A stretch of DNA of 64,000 nucleotides from Planococcus sp. MB-3u-03 (GTDB lineage: Bacteria > Bacillota > Bacilli > Bacillales_A > Planococcaceae): NCBI RefSeq assembly GCF_002833405.1, contig NZ_CP025135.1:3205501-3269500 (forward strand). Direction: 5' to 3'. The stretch's first letter is position 1; every line of letters begins with the position of its first letter. Made by a program: the position numbers and the translations under genes. The notes under the pieces are model-generated. The model was not told the origin of the DNA, searched no databases, and worked only from the letters and a program-made list of their open reading frames with translations. Positions 25,980 through 39,701 of the stretch are shown one piece after another.

Positions 25980-26065
25980 ATAAACGCAAGTTAATTAGGT
26001 GGGCACACTTGGGCCGCACAAACCAAACCTTTGTCATCCTTCCCAATTCCCGGAGAAGTGCAAAA

Positions 26066-26230
26066 CGACAACAGAGGCAGGTCTCCTGGCTCGCGCGTCA
26101 CTCTCCCATGCCCTTCCCGTCCATTGGACAGTGGGATTTCATGGTTCGTCTGCGCTTACAGTTGCGGGAACAGCTCCGGGATTTCACCGGATTCCCTATT
26201 CAGCCCATATTGGGCACCTTTGTTGCGGTA
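26066..26230 (-). promoter_or_regulatory. Cobalamin (adenosylcobalamin) riboswitch
   Basis: Read leftward, the region has the conserved B12-element pieces in order: AGGTGCC, GAATCCGGTGAAATCCCGGA, GCTGTTCCCGCAACTGTAA, CCACTGT, GGGAAGG and GCCAGGAGACCTGCC. The ends CCGCAACA and TGTTGTCG can close helix P1. A terminator hairpin follows before the thioesterase-nrdEF operon. Such elements normally switch genes off when cobalamin is present, and are known before B12-independent ribonucleotide reductases in genomes that also hold a B12-dependent one. Confidence 0.93.
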
Positions 26231-26435
26231 TCACTATATATGGTGTTGAAATTTTACATCATCACCAAATCTTGTAGTTTCACTATAGACCAGTTCGAAT
26301 TTCGCCGCAAGGATTTTCTCGCACTTCCTGTAGAAAGTGAAAAAGGGTCTAGTTGCTGGCGTGTTTTTCGTATAAAACTTTCAATTTGTAGTTAATTTTT
26401 GATACGTGGTTCGTTGAATCTTGCTGGTTGTGTAT
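26231..26435. other. Gap between cobalamin riboswitch and repeat array
   Basis: This AT-rich stretch must contain the leftward promoter of the riboswitch operon; TATAGT-like sequences occur, but no convincing -35/-10 pair at 17 bases is seen. No gene is visible. Confidence 0.4.
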
Positions 26436-26930
26436 AGATGGCGAGAGTTTGCTTCTAGAATCGTTCCAGTGGTTGGTTTATGCTTCATTTTAGTAGTCGC
26501 CTCCGGGCTTTGGGTTGGCCTCTCGCAATAAGCCAGGAAGAGCGTCTGTCTTATTGCTTCGGCTCACCCTTTTGCGCTCGGCGGCTCGGAGATTTCATTG
26601 TGAGTAGACTGTTTAAATAGTTTTATTTCTTTAGTTAGTTGCCGGCTAGTGGGGAAATCGCTTCCCGGGGCAGGCTTCGGTGAAGACAGCGAGAGCTTAC
26701 TTGTGAAATCGTTCAGGCGTTCCAGTTATGCATCATCTTGGTAGTCACCGCCGGACTTTGGGTTGGCCTCTCTCAATAAGCCAAGAAGAGCGCCTGTCTT
26801 ATTGCGTCGGCTCACCCCTTTGCGCTCGGCTGCTTGGAAATTTCATTGTGTGGAGTATGATTAACCAGCTCTGCTTCTGTATACGTTGCCGGCTAGTGGG
26901 GAAATCGCTTCCCTGGATGGGCATGTAATA
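26436..26930. repeat. Tandem structured repeat array 1 (copies A and B)
   Basis: Two copies of an about 248-base unit lie head to tail; the motif TTTGGGTTGGCC recurs at 26509 and 26757. Each holds a 58-base nested hairpin (26512-26569 and 26760-26817) built on GGGT/ACCC, GGCC-type and CAATAAG/CTTATTG helices, then the constant TTGCCGGCTAGTG and a small hairpin GGGAA-loop-TTCCC (26652-26666, 26899-26913). Related copies lie at 32101-32590. Weak open frames occur in the plus strand but no ribosome site supports them. I cannot match the unit to a known RNA or mobile element; a noncoding structured RNA is the favoured reading. Confidence 0.8.
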
Positions 26931-27066
26931 AGATAGTGTGGAGGTCATTTCGAATGATTTCAGCATTCTATTTGTTCTTCACATCAACTGCGCTGTCTAG
27001 CTTTGGATTAGCTCTTAGTAAAACTCCAAACGCTATCTCCGCTCCCCCCTCTATTTCCCAGGAAAT
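26931..27066. other. Short gap after repeat array 1
   Basis: No gene is visible between the array and the terminator of the DUF3934 gene. Confidence 0.4.
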
Positions 27067-27098
27067 AAAAAGACCGCGCAATTGCCTGCGCGGTTTTT
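27067..27098 (-). terminator. Intrinsic terminator
   Basis: ACCGCGCA and TGCGCGGT pair around ATTGCC, with A/T runs on both sides; it directly follows the DUF3934 gene and could also stop rightward transcripts from the array. Confidence 0.8.
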
Positions 27099-27099
27099 G

Positions 27100-27288
27100 T
27101 TATCCATCGACCCATTCAGATTCAGCTTCTGGCTGCTTTCCTTTTTGGTTCGTGGCTTCTTTATTGTCTTTGCTTGTATACGGCTTAAAACTTTTGGCTT
27201 TGTTTTTGCCTTTTTCCCAACGGTTCCAGCCTTTTTTGCCGGTTCCTTGGCCTACGCCGCTTTTTGATTTTGCTTTCGCTTTGCCCAT
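27100..27288 (-). CDS. DUF3934 family small basic protein
   Basis: A 62-residue, Lys-rich protein beginning MGKAKAKSKSGVGQGTGKKGW, with the GTGKKGWNRWEKG-type core that marks DUF3934 proteins of bacilli. Function is unknown; the charge suggests nucleic acid or ribosome contact. The ATG at 27288 has GGGAG eight bases upstream; an in-frame GTG three codons before it lies within that ribosome site. Confidence 0.75.
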   Translation of the reverse strand: MGKAKAKSKSGVGQGTGKKGWNRWEKGKNKAKSFKPYTSKDNKEATNQKGKQPEAESEWVDG

Positions 27289-27360
27289 TTCTTTCACTCC
27301 CGTTCACTCATCGTGACGTTCAGCTTACCACATCCCGCCGCTTTCGTGAACAGTTCGTGT

Positions 27361-27840
27361 TTAGGCCTCGAGCACTTTCTGGATATCTTTGTGCATCGAA
27401 TCAGGCGTATCTTTCGGTGCGAACCTCGCCACGACTTTGCCATTCGGGTCGACAAGGAACTTCGTGAAATTCCATTTGATGCCGCTCGACAGGAAGCCTT
27501 TCGTGTTCGACGTCAAATGATCGAACAGCGGGTGCGCATCTTTTCCGTTCACTTTGATGATGTCGTGCATCGGGAACGTGACGCCGTAAGTCATGCGGCA
27601 CGACGATTCGGCATCTGCCGCTTCCCCGACTTCCTGGCCGAACTGATCGGACGGAAAGCCAAGTACGACTAGGCCTTCATCTTTGTAGCGCTGGTAAATC
27701 TTTTCGAGGCCGTCAAACTGGCCGCGCAGGCCGCATTTGGTCGCCGTGTTGACGATGACCATCGGCTGGCCTTTGTAGCGTTCGAGCTTATACTCTTCCC
27801 CGCTGGCATCGGTGACCTTAATATCGTAGATTCCCATCAT
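27361..27840 (-). CDS. Glutathione peroxidase family thiol peroxidase
   Basis: A 159-residue GPx-fold peroxidase. Catalytic Cys is in NTATKCGLRGQ (about residue 36), Gln in GFPSDQFGQE and Trp in KWNFTKFLVD, the standard Cys-Gln-Trp set. Cys-type bacterial members usually take electrons from thioredoxin and reduce organic peroxides. It is the third gene of the ohr-ohrR-gpx cluster, which fits peroxide defence. Start ATG follows AGGAGTGATGA. Confidence 0.93.
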   Translation of the reverse strand: MMGIYDIKVTDASGEEYKLERYKGQPMVIVNTATKCGLRGQFDGLEKIYQRYKDEGLVVLGFPSDQFGQEVGEAADAESSCRMTYGVTFPMHDIIKVNGKDAHPLFDHLTSNTKGFLSSGIKWNFTKFLVDPNGKVVARFAPKDTPDSMHKDIQKVLEA

Positions 27841-27865
27841 TCATCACTCCTGTTTCCATGAATTT

Positions 27866-28303
27866 TCATAAATCCATCTCGCCGAAAAATGCATTTAAGG
27901 CTTTCAGGTTGTTCATCAGTTCGATGGCATTGACATCGAGATAATTGCAGCTGGTAATCTTGTCGTGAATGGCCTGCTCAATCGGCTTTTCATCCGCACG
28001 CGACTTTTCCGTCAAAGAAATCCGGAAAGCGCGGCGGTCTTCAGCCGATTGTTCTTTCACGATGCGGCCATTTTGAATCATTCGGTTGATGATCGGGTTG
28101 AGCGTGCCGGTGCCGAGGCCGAGTTGCCCCCCGATTTCTTTCATCGTCAAGCCGTCTTCTTCCCACAACACGAGCAAGACCAAATACTGCGTAAAGGTCA
28201 GGCCGAACGGTTCTAAGGTCTTCGCATAAAGTTTCGAGAAATTGCTCGACGCTTTATACACTTCAAAGCATAGTTGCTGTTCCAGCTTGGTTGGTTTGTC
28301 CAT
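27866..28303 (-). CDS. ohrR: OhrR-type MarR regulator of organic peroxide response
   Basis: A 145-residue MarR protein with winged helix (LTMKEIGGQLGLGTGTLNPI, then DRRAFRISLTEK). The N-terminal Cys in LEQQLCFEVYKASSNF corresponds to the peroxide-sensing Cys15 of OhrR. It is encoded directly after ohr, so it most likely represses ohr and itself until that Cys is oxidised. The ATG at 28303 has AGGTGA five bases upstream; an open extension further upstream lacks such a site. Confidence 0.93.
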   Translation of the reverse strand: MDKPTKLEQQLCFEVYKASSNFSKLYAKTLEPFGLTFTQYLVLLVLWEEDGLTMKEIGGQLGLGTGTLNPIINRMIQNGRIVKEQSAEDRRAFRISLTEKSRADEKPIEQAIHDKITSCNYLDVNAIELMNNLKALNAFFGEMDL

Positions 28304-28323
28304 GTCATCACCTGTTTTTCTGC

Positions 28324-28743
28324 TTATCGAACGACAATCTCCACGTCCACTGAATCTTTGATCGCTTTGGAATATGGGCAATACGCGTGGGCTTTGTCGA
28401 CGTATTCCTGTTTCTTGCCATCTTCCAGGCCGTCGATATCCACTTCGAGGCGCACTGCGAGTTTCACGCCGCCGTCTGTTTTATCGCCCAGCAAGGAAAC
28501 TGTCGCTGTGACTTCGCTGTTCGTTACTTTCACTTTATCACGTTCCAACACGAAGTCCAATGCACTGTTGAAGCAAGAGCTATAGCCTGCCGCAAACAAT
28601 TGCTCAGGGTTGGTTGCCGTATTCGGCTGGCCGCCAAGCGCGACTGGCTTTGCTACATCAAGATTGAAAATATTATCTGGTGAATAAACCGTGCCTTCAC
28701 GTCCACCGCTGTTGATCATTGTCGTTTCAAAAATTGGTTTCAT
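28324..28743 (-). CDS. ohr: Organic hydroperoxide resistance protein Ohr
   Basis: A 139-residue OsmC/Ohr-fold peroxidase. The two redox cysteines are in AAGYSSCFNSAL (about residue 57) and AYCPYSKA (about 121), the Ohr spacing. Ohr reduces organic hydroperoxides, usually with lipoyl cofactors. The ATG at 28743 follows GGAGGG; it leads the peroxide operon and its promoter carries repeated operator-like dyads. Confidence 0.95.
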   Translation of the reverse strand: MKPIFETTMINSGGREGTVYSPDNIFNLDVAKPVALGGQPNTATNPEQLFAAGYSSCFNSALDFVLERDKVKVTNSEVTATVSLLGDKTDGGVKLAVRLEVDIDGLEDGKKQEYVDKAHAYCPYSKAIKDSVDVEIVVR

Positions 28744-28766
28744 TTTTATATCCCTCCAAAAATTAT

Positions 28767-28809
28767 ATCTTACACGATCTATATTAGAATAAATCGTACA
28801 CGATGTAAA
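28767..28809 (-). promoter_or_regulatory. ohr promoter with two OhrR operator candidates
   Basis: Read leftward, TTTACA (28809-28804) and TAATAT (28786-28781) are 17 bases apart. ATCGTGTACGAT fills the spacer (28804-28793) and ATCGTGTAAGAT follows the -10 (28778-28767). The two 12-mers share eleven bases and lie 26 bases apart, as expected for cooperative repressor sites. Confidence 0.65.
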
Positions 28810-28837
28810 ATGAAATGCTTTGGTTTTTTTCAAAAGA

Positions 28838-28866
28838 AAAATCCCAGATGCAAGATCCGGGATTTC
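28838..28866 (-). terminator. Intrinsic terminator
   Basis: AAATCCC and GGGATTT pair around a 13-base loop and are followed leftward by TTTTTC; it ends the methyltransferase gene. Confidence 0.65.
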
Positions 28867-28893
28867 CACTTCTTTATTCGCGATAGCTGAGCT

Positions 28894-29457
28894 TCAATAA
28901 ATATAAGGAATCAAGCGGGCGCGGTGCTTCATCCATTCCTTGTATTCGGGCCCGAACTTTTCGACGAGCAAGGCTTCTTCGTGCTGCATGCGTTTATTGA
29001 GTGCAAAAGCGAGCAACAAGCCGCCGGCAATCGCCGAAATCGGGCTCGTAAAGAACAGCGCCATGCCGATGCCGATCAAAAACAAGCCAGTATAAAGCGG
29101 GTGGCGCAGCTTGCGGTAAGGGCCGCTGCTGACGATCGTATCGCCTTCCCTAACCGTCACGTGGCGTGTGAATTGTGATTTCAAGTGAATGATCCCCCAA
29201 AATCGCAAAAAGACGCCGATGATAAGCAACACGAGCCCGATCGGCCTGAGCACCGAGGCAATTTCTGTTTCCGCCAGCTCCTGAAGCCAATAACCAAACA
29301 CGATGGTGGCAATCAGCGACAATAGGATCCCGAAGAATGTCCTTTTTTCGACCGGGTCGCCTTGCCCGGTCTCGCGATTTTTAAAAACGATGAATTCGAC
29401 CAGCCAAATAACGCTCACAGCGGTGAAAACCCAGTCCATCCACCCCATCACATCCAC
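28894..29457 (-). CDS. Isoprenylcysteine carboxyl methyltransferase family membrane protein
   Basis: A 187-residue integral membrane methyltransferase of the ICMT/PEMT type with about five hydrophobic segments. The cofactor motif SGPYRKLRHPLYTG is at about 110-123, and the C-terminal EALLVEKFGPEYKEWMK is typical of the family. The bacterial substrate is unknown, since bacteria lack prenylated proteins; small lipids or quinone-like compounds are possible. It stands alone between two terminators. Confidence 0.88.
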   Translation of the reverse strand: MDVMGWMDWVFTAVSVIWLVEFIVFKNRETGQGDPVEKRTFFGILLSLIATIVFGYWLQELAETEIASVLRPIGLVLLIIGVFLRFWGIIHLKSQFTRHVTVREGDTIVSSGPYRKLRHPLYTGLFLIGIGMALFFTSPISAIAGGLLLAFALNKRMQHEEALLVEKFGPEYKEWMKHRARLIPYIY

Positions 29458-29525
29458 CTCTTTCTTCTCCTTAAAATACTATAGAAGATGCCGCTCAAAT
29501 ACAATTTCCAACTGGTTGCGAATAG

Positions 29526-29560
29526 AAAAAGCTGTCCCGGCACCTTACCGGAACAGCTCT
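29526..29560 (-). terminator. Intrinsic terminator after cytochrome oxidase operon
   Basis: AGCTGTTCCGGTAAGGTGCCGG-type stem (AGCTGTTCCGG with CCGGGACAGCT) is followed leftward by TTTTTC. Confidence 0.8.
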
Positions 29561-29563
29561 TCT

Positions 29564-29650
29564 TTAGTCTTCGTCCGTCACCGACAACTCAACGAGCATC
29601 GCGGTGAAAACGATGAAAATGGCCATTAATGCGATTACCATCGTGAACAT
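29564..29650 (-). CDS. 28-residue membrane peptide of the ba3 oxidase operon
   Basis: A very short gene with start ATG at 29650. Its ribosome site TAGGAG overlaps the stop of the oxidase subunit I gene. The product is a single hydrophobic helix (FTMVIALMAIFIVFTAMLV) with the acidic end TDED. It is followed at once by the operon terminator. No homologue is recognised; a small structural subunit of the oxidase, like other single-helix subunits, is inferred from coupling and size. Confidence 0.6.
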   Translation of the reverse strand: MFTMVIALMAIFIVFTAMLVELSVTDED

Positions 29651-29662
29651 TGTCCTCAACTC

Positions 29663-31315
29663 CTACCATGTAATAAATCCTTTCGAGCCAGGCGGTGCAT
29701 GTTGGATCATGTGGGTCAGTGGAATCGCGTATGCAATGATGATCAACGCGGCGGCAATGCCGATCCAAATCCACCAGTTTTCCAGCCATTTCGGTGTATT
29801 CGACATATCGCTTTCCGCCAGCGGGAATTCCACCATCTGTTCAGGCGTTTCCGCTTTTGGCGAAACGAACATCGTCATGATGACGATATACATCAAGATC
29901 ATGGCAGACAGGAACAAAATCGTGCCGCCGATCGCCATCGTCACATGGTTCGAGATGATGCCGTCAAACCATTCCATCGCCGACGGGTGGTCGTTATAGC
30001 CGCTGTAAGCTGTGCGGCGCGGAGCCCCCATCAAGCCTAATACGTGCTGTGCAGTCGACATGAGCAGCATACCGATCGACCACGTGATGATCTGGACAAA
30101 GCCGAGGCGCTGCATGCGCTTCGTGAAACGGCGCCCCGTCAAATATGGGATGAGCCAGAAGGTCAAGCCCATAAACGTCATCGCGACAGGCGTTCCGACG
30201 GTAATATGGAAATGCCCGACAATCCATAAGGTATTGTGGACGACTTCATTCAATTGAAAACTGGCATTGATGATCCCGCCAGCGCCCCCAGGAATGAAGA
30301 ACGCCATGGCGATGAAAATCGACGTGAACCGGACATCTCGCCACGGCAATTTCTTGAACCAGCCAAAGAGGCCGGTGCCGCCTTTTTTGCGCCCTGAAAT
30401 TTCAAAGGTCGCAAACATCGAGAACGCCGTCATGAGTGATGGCACGATGACCATAAAGGTCAAGACGACCTGCAGGAACTTCCAGAAGTTCGAGATACCC
30501 GGCTCCGTCAATTGATGATGGAACCCGACCGGAATCGAGAACAGAATAAACAAGACGAAGGCGAGACGTGCCAAGGAATCACTGAACACTTTCACGCCAA
30601 GCAGTTTCGGCACGATCGTGTACCAAGCGATGTACGCTGGAAGCAGCCAGAAATACACAAGCGGGTGGCCGAAATACCAGAACAGCGAACGGCTCAATTC
30701 CACATTGATCGTATCCGTCCAACCGAATGCCCACGGAATGTATTGGAACAACACAGTCGCAACAACGCCAAGACAGGCGATGATCCATAACACGATGGTC
30801 GTGACCGTCATGAACGCAAACAAGGGACTCAATTGCCCTTTATTGTTACGGCGCCAAACCATGTAATGGCCGACCAAGGCAAAACTCGAGATCCACGTGC
30901 CGACAATGACCAAAGCCAGGCCGACATAATAAAATCCGTTCGCTTTCAGCGGGGCGTAAAATGTATAAAGCACTGAAGCTTCACCGGCCACAATCATGAC
31001 TGTAGCCATGACCGTTCCGAGCAGCGTCACCCACAGACCGATCCATGAAAACAAGCGGACTTTAGGGCCGAAGCTGCCAAGGCTTTTGCTCATGCCGGTG
31101 ATAAAGAAGGCGAAAATGAAAAAGGTCGTATAAATAAGTGCAAGCAAGACGCCGTGCGCAGTAAGGATTTGGTAATAATCAAGCCAAGCCGGGAGCTGAA
31201 GTGCGTCGTTGCGGATAAATACCTGCAAGACGCCCATGAGCGTACCGATCAAAAATGCGGTATAAGCGACACCTAAGTGCCATAAGGCGATTTTACGTTC
31301 TGGTTGGGCAATCAT
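29663..31315 (-). CDS. ba3-type cytochrome c oxidase subunit I
   Basis: A 550-residue heme-copper oxidase catalytic subunit with more than twelve helices. It reduces oxygen to water and pumps protons in the cell membrane. Family features: heme ligands in ILTAHGVLLALIYT and VGHFHITVGTP, and the CuB region FWYFGHPLVYFWLLPAYIAW. The overall sequence and the very short subunit II mark the B-type (ba3) class, usually used at low oxygen. I take the ATG at 31315 with GAGGTG seven bases upstream, one base after the subunit II stop. Confidence 0.94.
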   Translation of the reverse strand: MIAQPERKIALWHLGVAYTAFLIGTLMGVLQVFIRNDALQLPAWLDYYQILTAHGVLLALIYTTFFIFAFFITGMSKSLGSFGPKVRLFSWIGLWVTLLGTVMATVMIVAGEASVLYTFYAPLKANGFYYVGLALVIVGTWISSFALVGHYMVWRRNNKGQLSPLFAFMTVTTIVLWIIACLGVVATVLFQYIPWAFGWTDTINVELSRSLFWYFGHPLVYFWLLPAYIAWYTIVPKLLGVKVFSDSLARLAFVLFILFSIPVGFHHQLTEPGISNFWKFLQVVLTFMVIVPSLMTAFSMFATFEISGRKKGGTGLFGWFKKLPWRDVRFTSIFIAMAFFIPGGAGGIINASFQLNEVVHNTLWIVGHFHITVGTPVAMTFMGLTFWLIPYLTGRRFTKRMQRLGFVQIITWSIGMLLMSTAQHVLGLMGAPRRTAYSGYNDHPSAMEWFDGIISNHVTMAIGGTILFLSAMILMYIVIMTMFVSPKAETPEQMVEFPLAESDMSNTPKWLENWWIWIGIAAALIIIAYAIPLTHMIQHAPPGSKGFITW

Positions 31316-31316
31316 G

Positions 31317-31784
31317 TCAGTACACCTCAATTTCCGTAGACATCATATGGTGCCCGGTGCCACAGTATTCGTTGCACAGAATCAAATACTTGCCCGGTTC
31401 TTCAAATGTGTAGGATTTGGTCGTAATCCGTCCGGGAACGACCATCATATTGACTTTCGTGTTGTCGATCGTAAAGCTGTGCACCACATCCGTGCTGGTG
31501 ACTTTAAAAATGATTTCTTTGCCGGCCGGCACCCGCAAGTCCGGTGCGTTGTAGCCGAAAGCCAGTGCGACGATCGCTACTTGATATGTATCTTCGTCCA
31601 ATTGCGTGACTCCCGGGTTATCGAATGGCGCGGTTTCGTTCACTTTCTCCGGGTCGATGGTGTCCATCCCTCCGGACGGCGTGTGATTTTGCGAAAATGC
31701 GCTGACGCCGACGACGCTCAAAAAGACGATGAGCGAGACGATGCCGAAACTGAGCCAAATCTTCTCGTATTTATGGAAATGCAT
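31317..31784 (-). CDS. ba3-type cytochrome c oxidase subunit II (CuA)
   Basis: A 155-residue subunit with one N-terminal helix (about 11-30) and an outer cupredoxin domain. CuA ligands are seen as His in STDVVHSF and as the CNEYCGTGHHMM cluster near the C-terminus. It takes electrons from cytochrome c. The short, single-helix form is typical of ba3 oxidases. It is placed between subunit IIa and subunit I with one-base coupling to subunit I. Confidence 0.94.
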   Translation of the reverse strand: MHFHKYEKIWLSFGIVSLIVFLSVVGVSAFSQNHTPSGGMDTIDPEKVNETAPFDNPGVTQLDEDTYQVAIVALAFGYNAPDLRVPAGKEIIFKVTSTDVVHSFTIDNTKVNMMVVPGRITTKSYTFEEPGKYLILCNEYCGTGHHMMSTEIEVY

Positions 31785-31802
31785 GATGAATCTCTCCTTT
31801 TT

Positions 31803-31925
31803 TTATCTCGCTACGTACATCAAATACACGGCAACCCACATGGCAACGATGACGATGCCGACGAAGAATACACTGACGAGTGTCCCCTTCAAATTCACCT
31901 CATGATCCGATTGCTTCTTATCCAT
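31803..31925 (-). CDS. Cytochrome c oxidase subunit IIa, 40 residues
   Basis: A 40-residue single-helix protein (start MDKKQSDHEVNLKGTL, helix VSVFFVGIVIVAMWVAVYLM). Size, topology and place directly before subunit II match subunit IIa of the Thermus ba3 oxidase, which supplies the helix missing from the short subunit II. ATG at 31925 has GAGGTGGAAGC upstream. It is the first gene of the operon. Confidence 0.85.
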   Translation of the reverse strand: MDKKQSDHEVNLKGTLVSVFFVGIVIVAMWVAVYLMYVAR

Positions 31926-32041
31926 TGCTTCCACCTCTTCGCTCGTTTGCTGTTTCCTTTAGCATAGGACCTAAGTTTCGGTTTAGCTGTGACATAAATC
32001 ACACCTAGCCGTTTTTATTTTTAGCTGTCCATATTTTCGCC

Positions 32042-32074
32042 AAAAAAATAAAGCCTGCAGATGAGCAGGCTTTT
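32042..32074 (-). terminator. Intrinsic terminator facing repeat array 2
   Basis: AAAGCCTGC and GCAGGCTTT pair around AGATGA. Read leftward it is followed by ATTTTTTTG, a better T run than on the other strand. No leftward gene lies between it and the next terminator at 32970, so it probably ends a noncoding leftward transcript of the repeats. Confidence 0.65.
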
Positions 32075-32100
32075 AGGTAGTTGCTATTTGTTGGAATGAA

Positions 32101-32590
32101 TGGTGGAGATAGCGTGTGGCGTTGTTCCGCTGTTCTATTGGAGTTTCATGTTGGCAGTCGCCGCCGGGCTTTGGGTTGGCCTCTTGCCATAAGCCAGGAA
32201 GAGCACCTGTCTTACGACGTCGGCTCACCCTTTTACGCTCGGCGGCTGAGAGATTTCATTGAGTCGGGTATGTTTAATCAGATCTGCTTCTTTATTCAGT
32301 TGCCGGCTAGTGGAGGAATCGCTTCCTGGATTAGGTGTGTGCAGGATAGTTGGAGTTTGCGAGTGGCGTTGTTCCCCTGTTCTATTTTTCTTCTTGGTAA
32401 TATTCGCTGCCTTGCTTTGGGTTGGCCTTTGGCAGTAAGCCAAGAAGAACACTTGTCTTACTGCGTCGGCTCACCCTAGGCGCCGGCAGCTGAGAGATTT
32501 CATTGCCTGTAGATTGTTTAATCGCATCTGCTTCAATATGCAATTGCCGGCTAGTGTGGGAATCGCTTCCTGAGATGGTGCATCTGAAAA
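32101..32590. repeat. Tandem structured repeat array 2 (copies C and D)
   Basis: Two more copies of the unit of 26436-26930, with TTTGGGTTGGCC at 32170 and 32416 (246 bases apart). The 58-base hairpins are at 32173-32230 and 32419-32476 and the small hairpins at 32314-32327 and 32558-32571. Compensatory differences between copies: GCCGCC/GGCGGC (C) versus GCTGCC/GGCAGC (D) in the closing helix; CAGG/CCTG (C) versus CAAG/CTTG (D) at the tip; GCAATAAG/CTTATTGC (A) versus GCAGTAAG/CTTACTGC (D). Such covariation points to a conserved fold in RNA. The array is bracketed by two leftward terminators. Confidence 0.8.
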
Positions 32591-32739
32591 GCCGCTGATT
32601 GAGCAAGTTAAGGTTATGGGTTTGTTTGGTAGATAGAGACATGTGACCCTTCATTCTTCTACCTGTTTGAAGCAAGCTATAGAATAATATGAATTTCTAC
32701 ATTTCATTTTAAAGGAGCTGAAGAACTGATCTTCCACTC

Positions 32740-32885
32740 TAAAGCTAGAGACGGAGTGGAAGGGGCCGACTCCGGGAGGATTAGCGAGACAATTGAGACC
32801 CTGCAGGAGCGCAGCGACGAAGCGGCTCAATGCGAGCCCTCCGGAAAGCGTGCCCCTGCAACGAAGTCGAAAAGCCGAAGCTTTT
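32740..32885. repeat. Bacillales-type dispersed palindromic repeat
   Basis: The stretch with GCCGACTCCGGGAGGATTAG, GAGACCCTGCAGGAGCGCAG, CGACGAAGCGGCTC and GGAAAGCGTGCCCCTGCAAC has the wording of a repeat I know from many Bacillaceae and Planococcaceae intergenic regions (ACTCC...GGGAGGA, GAGACCC...CAGGAGCG, GGAAAGCG). It is strongly palindromic and noncoding. An open frame across it on the minus strand (32651-32893) is a by-product. Confidence 0.65.
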
Positions 32886-32969
32886 CCTTTCATTGCTCTT
32901 ATATTTTAGCTATATAACTCCTTTGCACCACGCTCTTAAGGAGAAAAAGCCAATTTTACTAGAGCAAAC

Positions 32970-32997
32970 AAAAAGCCTACCGTAACGGCAGGCTTTA
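32970..32997 (-). terminator. Intrinsic terminator after fnr
   Basis: AAAGCCT-A-CCG and CGG-C-AGGCTTT pair around TAA just beyond the fnr stop codon, followed leftward by TTTTTG. Confidence 0.75.
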
Positions 32998-33000
32998 AGA

Positions 33001-38662: not shown

Positions 38663-39496
38663 TTATTTCGACCCGTATAGCTGCTCGAGTTCTTCTTCTT
38701 TCATCGTGAAGCGGTGCTGTTCTTTCGGGAACGCGCCGCTCTTTACTTCTTCGACGTACTGGGCGAGCCCTTGTTGCATGGTCTCGCCTGCTTCTGCATA
38801 GGACTGGACGAATTTCGGCAAATGGTGCGAGCCGTATTTAACGGTGTCGTGGTAGACGAGCACTTGCCCGTCGGTTTCGTTGCCGGCGCCGATGCCAATG
38901 ACCGGAATGTTGAGTTCTTTCGTGACTTGGGCAGCCAATTGATGCGGGATGCATTCGAGTACGAGCATGCAGGCTCCTGCCGCTTCGCACGCTTTGGCGT
39001 CTTCGATCAATTGCTTGGCAGCGCTGGCTGTTTTGCCTTGCACTTTATAGCCGCCGAGCACAGCCGCTGATTGCGGCAATAAACCGAGATGGGCGACAAT
39101 TGGAATGCCGGCTCCAACAAGCTTTCTTGTCACTTCAAGTACTTCTCCTGCGCCTTCGAGTTTCAAGGCTTGTGCGCTCGTTTGCTGGAAGATTCGCATG
39201 GCATTTTCAAGCGTGCGGTCCCAGCTGCCGTGAAACGAGCCGAACGGCATATCAACGACGAGGAACGTGTCCATTGCCCCTCTCCGTGCCGCTTTCCCGT
39301 GATGGACCATATCCTCGACCGTCACCTTGACGGTTGAATCGTAGCCGAGCACGACCATGCCGAGCGAATCGCCGACAAGCAGCACATCCATCCCCGCCGC
39401 TTCCGCGATTTTGGCGGACGGATAATCGTAAGCCGTCAGCATCGCAATCTTGTTCCCTTGCTGTTTCATCTTCATCAATGAAGCTGTATTTTCCAT
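38663..39496 (-). CDS. panB: 3-methyl-2-oxobutanoate hydroxymethyltransferase
   Basis: A 277-residue PanB that adds a hydroxymethyl group from methylene-tetrahydrofolate to ketoisovalerate, the first step to pantothenate. Signatures seen: [17 protein letters not shown] at about 19-35, [13 protein letters not shown] at about 39-51 (metal-binding Asp), VVDMPFGS at about 80-87 and IPVIGIGAG near 198-206. No panC or panD follows in the window, so panB stands apart from the usual panBCD cluster. An imperfect hairpin lies in its leader. Confidence 0.95.
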
Positions 39497-39549: not shown

Positions 39550-39701
39550 GGACGGACAGAATTTGATTGTGTCGGTTTCTCCGTCCCTGTCGTTTTTCAG
39601 ATCAAGGCAGATCTATTGAGTTGTTAAGCTTTTTTACAGGTGCAGTTCCTGATGGATACCACCCTGTTTTTACTATAGCAGATGCTTACGCCAGCCGAAA
39701 G

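Follow-up and report, generated by a model that had tools for sequence, protein, structure and literature searches.

What are the two tandem repeats that lie within a 64,000-nucleotide stretch of the Planococcus sp. MB-3u-03 genome, and why should their copies have kept a common fold? This stretch, referred to as the window (C13:3205501-3269500 of the 3.61 Mb assembly), contains two tandem pairs, array A at 26444-26917 and array B at 32106-32575, which an earlier, sequence-only reading had interpreted as a structured RNA of these two loci. Our analysis showed instead that both arrays belong to a genome-wide and family-wide repeat.

In both arrays the units are arranged head-to-tail with start-to-start spacings of 248 (array A) and 246 (array B), in agreement with the earlier description. 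The units, their folded cores and second hairpins were located as follows (window coordinates; R1 is the covariance model of the core introduced below):

26444..26669, minus strand (likely the folded strand): array A unit 1 (A1), of the subfamily with a period of ~247; profile match, 225 positions
26693..26917, minus strand: array A unit 2 (A2); profile match
32106..32329, minus strand: array B unit 1 (B1); profile match
32353..32575, minus strand: array B unit 2 (B2); profile match
26495..26600, minus strand: folded core of A1, with the 24-pair consensus structure; alignment, pair counts and R1 match at C13:3231995-3232100
26743..26848, minus strand: folded core of A2; alignment, pair counts and R1 match
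32156..32261, minus strand: folded core of B1, with two G.U wobbles in the middle helix; alignment, pair counts and R1 match
32402..32505, minus strand: folded core of B2; alignment, pair counts and R1 match
26652..26666, minus strand: second hairpin of A1, loop GCGA or GCGAU; sequence reading and pattern count
32314..32327, minus strand: second hairpin of B1, loop GCGA; sequence reading and pattern count

The 58-base hairpins GGGT...ACCC which had been described are indeed present in all four copies (26512-26569, 26760-26817, 32173-32230 and 32419-32476). The paired changes quoted for their helices hold between some copies, but not between all. In detail, the closing helix is perfect in B1 (GCCGCC/GGCGGC) and in B2 (GCTGCC/GGCAGC), but contains mismatches in A1 (GCCTCC) and A2 (ACCGCC with GGCTGC). 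A1 and B2 have a fully paired middle helix, whereas a T replaces the first G in A2 and two mismatches occur in B1. The sequence CTTTGGGTTGGCCT has 4 matches in the window, all of them inside copies (0.33 expected at two or fewer mismatches).

Using array A as a blastn query against the whole genome, 54 matches were obtained, and an iterated profile search of the fetched stretches yielded 74 matches, 65 of them near full length. These profile matches were grouped into 37 arrays, of which 24 hold two to four units. For the copy alignment 65 of the 74 matches were included, and 63 of the 65 cores are distinct. The covariance model R1 gave 68 matches in the genome, two of which lie outside the fetched stretches. 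The units comprise 215-250 nt with a conserved core of ~105 nt and 24 base pairs, and they fall into two subfamilies with periods near 247 and 215. The single-strand motif TTGCCGGCTAGTG, which had been put forward as constant, is identical across the four window copies and has no further exact match in the window; genome-wide, however, it is confined to the first subfamily, and it or a near form is carried by 40 of the 65 copies.

Although four copies are insufficient as proof of covariation, the 63 distinct copies of the same genome do provide it. Among these cores, 97.2% of the 1511 base-pair cells are paired, 12 of the 24 pairs are changed on both sides (shuffle mean 7.8), and 119 doubly changed cells were counted, where shuffles gave 34 and slid structures no more than 15. 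In an alignment of 45 cores from five genera (A3, made up of 18 of the 63 host cores and 27 of 30 cores from other genera), 13 of the 23 predicted pairs are doubly changed. The z-scores of 20 of the 63 cores average -3.8, ranging from -6.3 to -0.6, and the cores average 78% identity between arrays. That the fold is maintained, as the sequence-only reading had held, is thus supported by compensatory changes among many copies, and we regard its preservation by such changes as well supported. Pairing that is maintained while the sequence changes points to a folded single strand, be it RNA or DNA, and not to duplex binding.

Two other candidates were rejected. A protein-coding repeat can be dismissed, since in every frame on both strands stops occur in some of the 63 cores (15 to 59 of 63). 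A known element of Rfam 15 was likewise rejected, as no gathering-score match was found on the repeats in the window and in 20 loci of other genera, in line with the earlier reading of the repeat as a candidate undescribed RNA. More permissive Rfam scans of the arrays gave no match over array A and seven sub-threshold matches around array B, none of them on the B units.

The direction in which a structured RNA is to be read can be judged by energies together with substitution patterns, which is the principle of RNAstrand (PMC1892782). For the Planococcus repeat both point to the complement of the strand originally described. The consensus fold energy is -30.8 on the minus strand and -15.6 on the other one, and on the minus strand 59 G.U cells were counted compared with 17 A.C cells (by pair 13 to 4 with 7 ties, p 0.049), while at the tip pair A.C is commoner than G.U by 5 to 2. 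In B1, for example, the middle helix reads GCCATAAG/CTTACGAC on the originally described strand, where a C.A and an A.C mismatch occur, and both become G.U wobbles when read on the minus strand. In addition, the second hairpin of the minus strand carries a GNRA-type loop (GCGA, GTGA or GCAA) in 43 of 65 copies, a five-base loop being possible in 11 of the 43; the pattern covered GNRA-type loops only, and most of the 22 unmatched copies are from the other subfamily. Taken together, these patterns suggest that the minus strand is likely the folded one, and a hairpin of single-stranded DNA could produce the same pattern.

A covariance-model search with the core, as proposed along with the sequence-only reading, showed that the repeat occurs in many Planococcaceae genomes and not only in the window. 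R1 matched all 36 Planococcus genomes, including the host, with 2 to at least 66 copies each (66 being the number scored), as well as all ten additional Planococcus genomes from the family and order samples. In the family sample 51 of 200 genomes and 5 of 19 genera were matched, in the order sample 73 of 200 genomes and 4 of 17 genera, the latter all within Planococcaceae, and none of 24 genomes of other families in the class was matched. A broader model, R2, matched 12 of 299 class genomes, again all Planococcaceae. The genus, family, order and class scans used strict filters and an upper limit on the matches scored per genome. In eight chosen genomes of four other genera R1 found 2 to 103 copies. 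No copies were found on the plasmids, phages and viral contigs searched, one of these scans being an exact-match pattern only. As far as searched, the repeat is a family-restricted, modular intergenic element. In another genus (G177:C3:43194-44982) core matches alternate in orientation inside one cluster, unlike the head-to-tail arrays of Planococcus.

The genes flanking the two arrays were sought in 46 genomes of the genus and matched in 40 and 44 of them, and the best 30 loci each were compared. Among the 14 loci nearest to that of the host (host included), units are present at the same place in all 14 for array A and in 13 for array B, where the single exception begins at a contig end; in the remaining 16 loci per set the profile found no units in the 1.5 kb flanks. 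At a fixed place the number of units varies, and so do the helix variants, most of which are intact, from one species to another. Arrays were also sampled from the best-scoring matches listed for the genomes G018 and G008, and 12 of 14 and 6 of 6, respectively, lie at host array positions. The two remaining G018 arrays are common to other species, with units in 6 of 7 genomes at one and in all 5 flank-bearing genomes at the other, and no recent insertion was seen at the sampled G018 arrays. An empty-site comparison at two loci yielded no clean empty site; at one, where the host lacks an array, the right flank is also missing from the host stretch that was fetched, and at the other the flank is unmatched in the host. 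Array positions are inherited while the unit number changes.

In the host, whole units of different arrays reach no more than 83% identity (contig C4 left out), whereas neighbouring units within an array reach 92.5%, and the identity is 0.786 within arrays compared with 0.628 between them. The low identity between arrays suggests that dispersal is old and local duplication younger, and that the fold was maintained meanwhile. Indeed, in 61 comparisons of positional counterparts (cores with at most 6 gaps and an identity of 0.82 to below 1, the window units being reused against many species, so that the counts are not independent), paired sites differ by 7.5% and unpaired sites by 13.4%, and of 139 changed pairs 112 are still standard, 9 are A.C and 18 are otherwise broken.

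G008 (L261) has one array at a place where two arrays in direct orientation, several kilobases apart, lie in the host (L040:3514-11081); this fits either a deletion via recombination between the arrays or an insertion in the host. On contig C4 of the host assembly (L060, 1-7049), the left part corresponds to the 1276-kb locus and the right part to the 2566-kb locus at 98.7-98.8%, with the switch within an array; this contig either stems from a near strain present in the assembly and rearranged at arrays, or is chimeric.

The arrays contain further parts besides the units, which in the case of array B are the following:

32576..32736, minus strand: linker joining array B and the G+C-rich module; sequence reading
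32737..32867, minus strand: CTCTAAAGCTAGAG box and G+C-rich module, capping array B on its 5' side as read along the folded strand; profile from 32701-32900

The G+C-rich module, searched for with this profile, lies at 27 of the 37 arrays, array B included, on what is the 3' side in the originally described strand. A linker with a recognisable box was detected in 24 of the 37 arrays by a pattern search, which the slightly different box of array B escaped. The module (window 32737-32867) may resemble a widespread Bacillaceae repeat; in relatives it is also found apart from units, e.g. near L219:3112-3235. Some units carry ~60 to 125 additional bases in the hairpin tip, and one unit is without the hairpin. 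The tip inserts (L048:4013-4318, L055:3843-4119, L047:1155-1408, L215, L220, L225 and L186) are alike at different loci, which gives the impression that the tip has received an additional structured module. Units stand alone or in tandem within the gaps separating operons, and the arrays are mosaics of structured modules.

The placement of the arrays relative to genes was determined with a codon-score gene caller. Among 36 arrays (contig C4 left out), 22 lie in tandem, 14 in convergent and none in divergent gaps, compared with 87, 9 and 29 of 125 control gaps, which corresponds to a depletion of divergent (p 0.0004) and an enrichment of convergent gaps (p 0.00002), the control gaps being much shorter (median 156 vs 959), which weakens the comparison. 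The gene 5' of the folded strand is co-oriented with it at 30 of 36 arrays; 14 of these lie in convergent gaps, where co-orientation follows by definition, and in tandem gaps the count is 16 of 22 (p 0.052). In convergent gaps the terminator of the facing gene lies before the other end of the array in 10 of 14 cases. Judged by skew signs, replication and the folded strand run in the same direction at 27 of 36 arrays (p 0.004), and C13 starts with dnaA, dnaN, recF and gyrB, as recognised by eye; gene orientation accounts for much of this bias. In the vicinity of the window arrays the following signals were found:

32050..32073, minus strand: intrinsic-terminator-like hairpin immediately beyond array B on the folded strand; terminator scan
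32972..32996, minus strand: terminator-like hairpin of a Crp-family gene, between this gene and the array B module; terminator scan
27073..27094, minus strand: terminator-like hairpin 5' of array A as read along the folded strand; terminator scan
26059..26236, minus strand: cobalamin riboswitch; Rfam scan of the window

The cobalamin riboswitch lies ~200 bases beyond array A on the folded strand and precedes the genes for a 4HBT thioesterase and a ribonucleotide reductase large chain. A pan motif is located at 39577-39665 (minus strand) upstream of a minus-strand open reading frame (38663-39496). In the Rfam scan both are separate from the repeats.

For what function, then, might such a fold be kept? 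The reading we favour, to which we give a little less than an even chance, is that these are modular folded intergenic repeats, similar to repetitive extragenic palindromic (REP) elements and bacterial interspersed mosaic elements (BIMEs) or to BOX elements but larger, which may act as RNA. Units would be gained through tandem duplication and swapped between arrays, selection would act on the minus-strand fold at each element's own place, and, less surely, the element may work as RNA by way of read-through or of a promoter of an unrecognised type. An array might present one folded domain in several copies to a binding partner; alternatively, it might protect the ends of transcripts between operons, a role proposed for REP elements. 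RNA is placed first because the second hairpin has a GNRA-type loop, the wobbles are asymmetric between the strands and a terminator lies beyond array B. More tentative is the wider proposal of a distributed RNA platform, in which one family-wide folded RNA domain would recur in multi-copy arrays at dozens of fixed places between operons, with the fold selected everywhere and the units swapped between sites.

Several observations weigh against this reading. The terminator of the upstream gene precedes the array in 23 of the 30 co-oriented cases, which also weakens the suggestion that the arrays are part of that gene's 3' untranslated region, and a terminator beyond the array on the folded strand was found at 7 of 36 arrays only. 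Array B is one of these, and for array A the terminator that was counted lies 464 bases on and is probably part of the next gene's riboswitch. Within the two window arrays, promoter-like sites are no more frequent than in shuffles, and an own sigma-A promoter was rejected there on the same grounds. Of 30 copies fetched from other genera, 28 were scored (one other is cut off by a contig end, one is without a gene on one side): 16 lie in tandem, 7 in convergent and 5 in divergent gaps, and their orientation is mixed, so that outside Planococcus the rule of placement does not generally hold. As to the strand, 17 of the 59 G.U cells stem from a single pair, and single-copy minimum energies favour the minus strand weakly (lower in 38 of 63). 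Finally, 12 doubly changed pairs were reached by 2 of 500 shuffles, a control which is uncorrected for the relatedness of the copies.

The sequence-only reading had argued that random repeats decay without paired changes, which is correct, but a hairpin of single-stranded DNA would be preserved likewise. The fold might thus act as such a hairpin, which would be exposed, for example, while the lagging strand is synthesised and would serve as a recognition site for a recombination or transposition protein, in a non-autonomous mobile or self-duplicating family whose folding copies multiply or exchange better. We consider this less likely than the RNA reading but a close rival, and place it second because the arrays lie mostly beyond terminators and the two scanned are without a promoter signal above shuffles. 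The range of copy numbers in the genus (2 to at least 66), the local growth of units seen in the identities of 0.786 within and 0.628 between arrays, the single G008 array in place of two direct host arrays and the 27 of 36 folded strands running with replication would all be in keeping with it, although the replication bias is largely explained by gene orientation. No recent insertion was found, however, the off-position G018 arrays are common to other species, and the plasmids, phages and viral contigs searched contained nothing. Mobilisation of the IS200 type or by a REP-associated tyrosine transposase (RAYT) is unsupported in the host, the genome of which has no Y1_Tnp match, and the Y1 transposase is also absent from other high-copy genomes, e.g. 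G016, G024 and G035. Genes for Y1 transposases occur in 29 of the 46 genus genomes, mostly one each with open frames near 200 codons, which we take to be the size of RAYTs, and by inspection their presence shows no relation to copy number.

A role as duplex DNA, as proposed for some BIMEs, with sites for gyrase or nucleoid proteins between operons and above all between convergent ones, would account for the enrichment of convergent gaps (14 of 36 vs 9 of 125) and the avoidance of divergent ones, although these control gaps were not matched for length (median 156 vs 959). Such binding would preserve sequence and not pairing under changing sequence, and we think it unlikely. Even less probable in our view is that the repeats are inert relics of an old mobile element whose structure was merely inherited from an ancestor. 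As might be expected of relics, truncation, loss of the hairpin or tip inserts are seen in some units, but a pairing of 97% in cores with an average identity of 78% between arrays, and its maintenance among positional counterparts, largely refute this explanation by covariation. The persistence of pairing in copies that are old and fixed speaks against both inert relics and a purely mobile family, and the putative RNA remains our preferred reading.

High-copy intergenic repeats are usually taken for mobile debris, whereas here a fold of 24 pairs is preserved in dozens of old copies per genome. This raises the testable question of whether a dispersed repeat works where it is placed or whether its fold survives only because folding copies multiply, and with the covariance models such sites can be annotated throughout Planococcus and related genera. 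No published description of the family was recognised in the literature searched, which lacked most subscription journals, and the repeat is apparently undescribed.

Which known systems does it resemble? BOX elements of Streptococcus pneumoniae, composed of boxA, boxB and boxC sequence modules, are modular, intergenic and structured, with a variable number of one module. The likeness is in modular layout only; BOX comes from another order, and the Planococcus core spans several genera. The bcr1 element of the Bacillus cereus group is a dispersed structured intergenic repeat of related Gram-positive bacteria; the Planococcus repeats, in contrast, form tandem arrays whose positions are retained among sister species. 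An element derived from IS200/IS605 would be expected to have a Y1 transposase in the same genome, and the host has none. Miniature inverted-repeat transposable elements (MITEs) and small mobile repeats are non-coding, dispersed and able to fold (PMC2229807), whereas the window arrays are without flanking inverted repeats, only three unrelated inverted pairs being found in 26000-33000 (minimum length 20; window arrays only), and neither a recent insertion nor a clean empty site that would reveal a target-site duplication was seen at the loci compared. REP elements and BIMEs are likewise described as high-copy, intergenic, structured, often clustered and situated between co-directional or convergent genes (PMC3733652). 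The host arrays follow this orientation (22 tandem, 14 convergent, 0 divergent), and 5 of 28 copies in other genera are divergent. In the same source REPs measure 20-40 bp, carry a GTAG or CGTC tag and are in many cases tied to RAYT transposases, while the Planococcus unit of 215-250 nt with its core of ~105 nt is no palindrome of 20-40 bp, its host is without a Y1 transposase and its arrays lie mostly beyond terminators. By these descriptions, its size, a host without a linked transposase and a core shared by multiple genera set the Planococcus repeat apart from REP/BIME and BOX elements.

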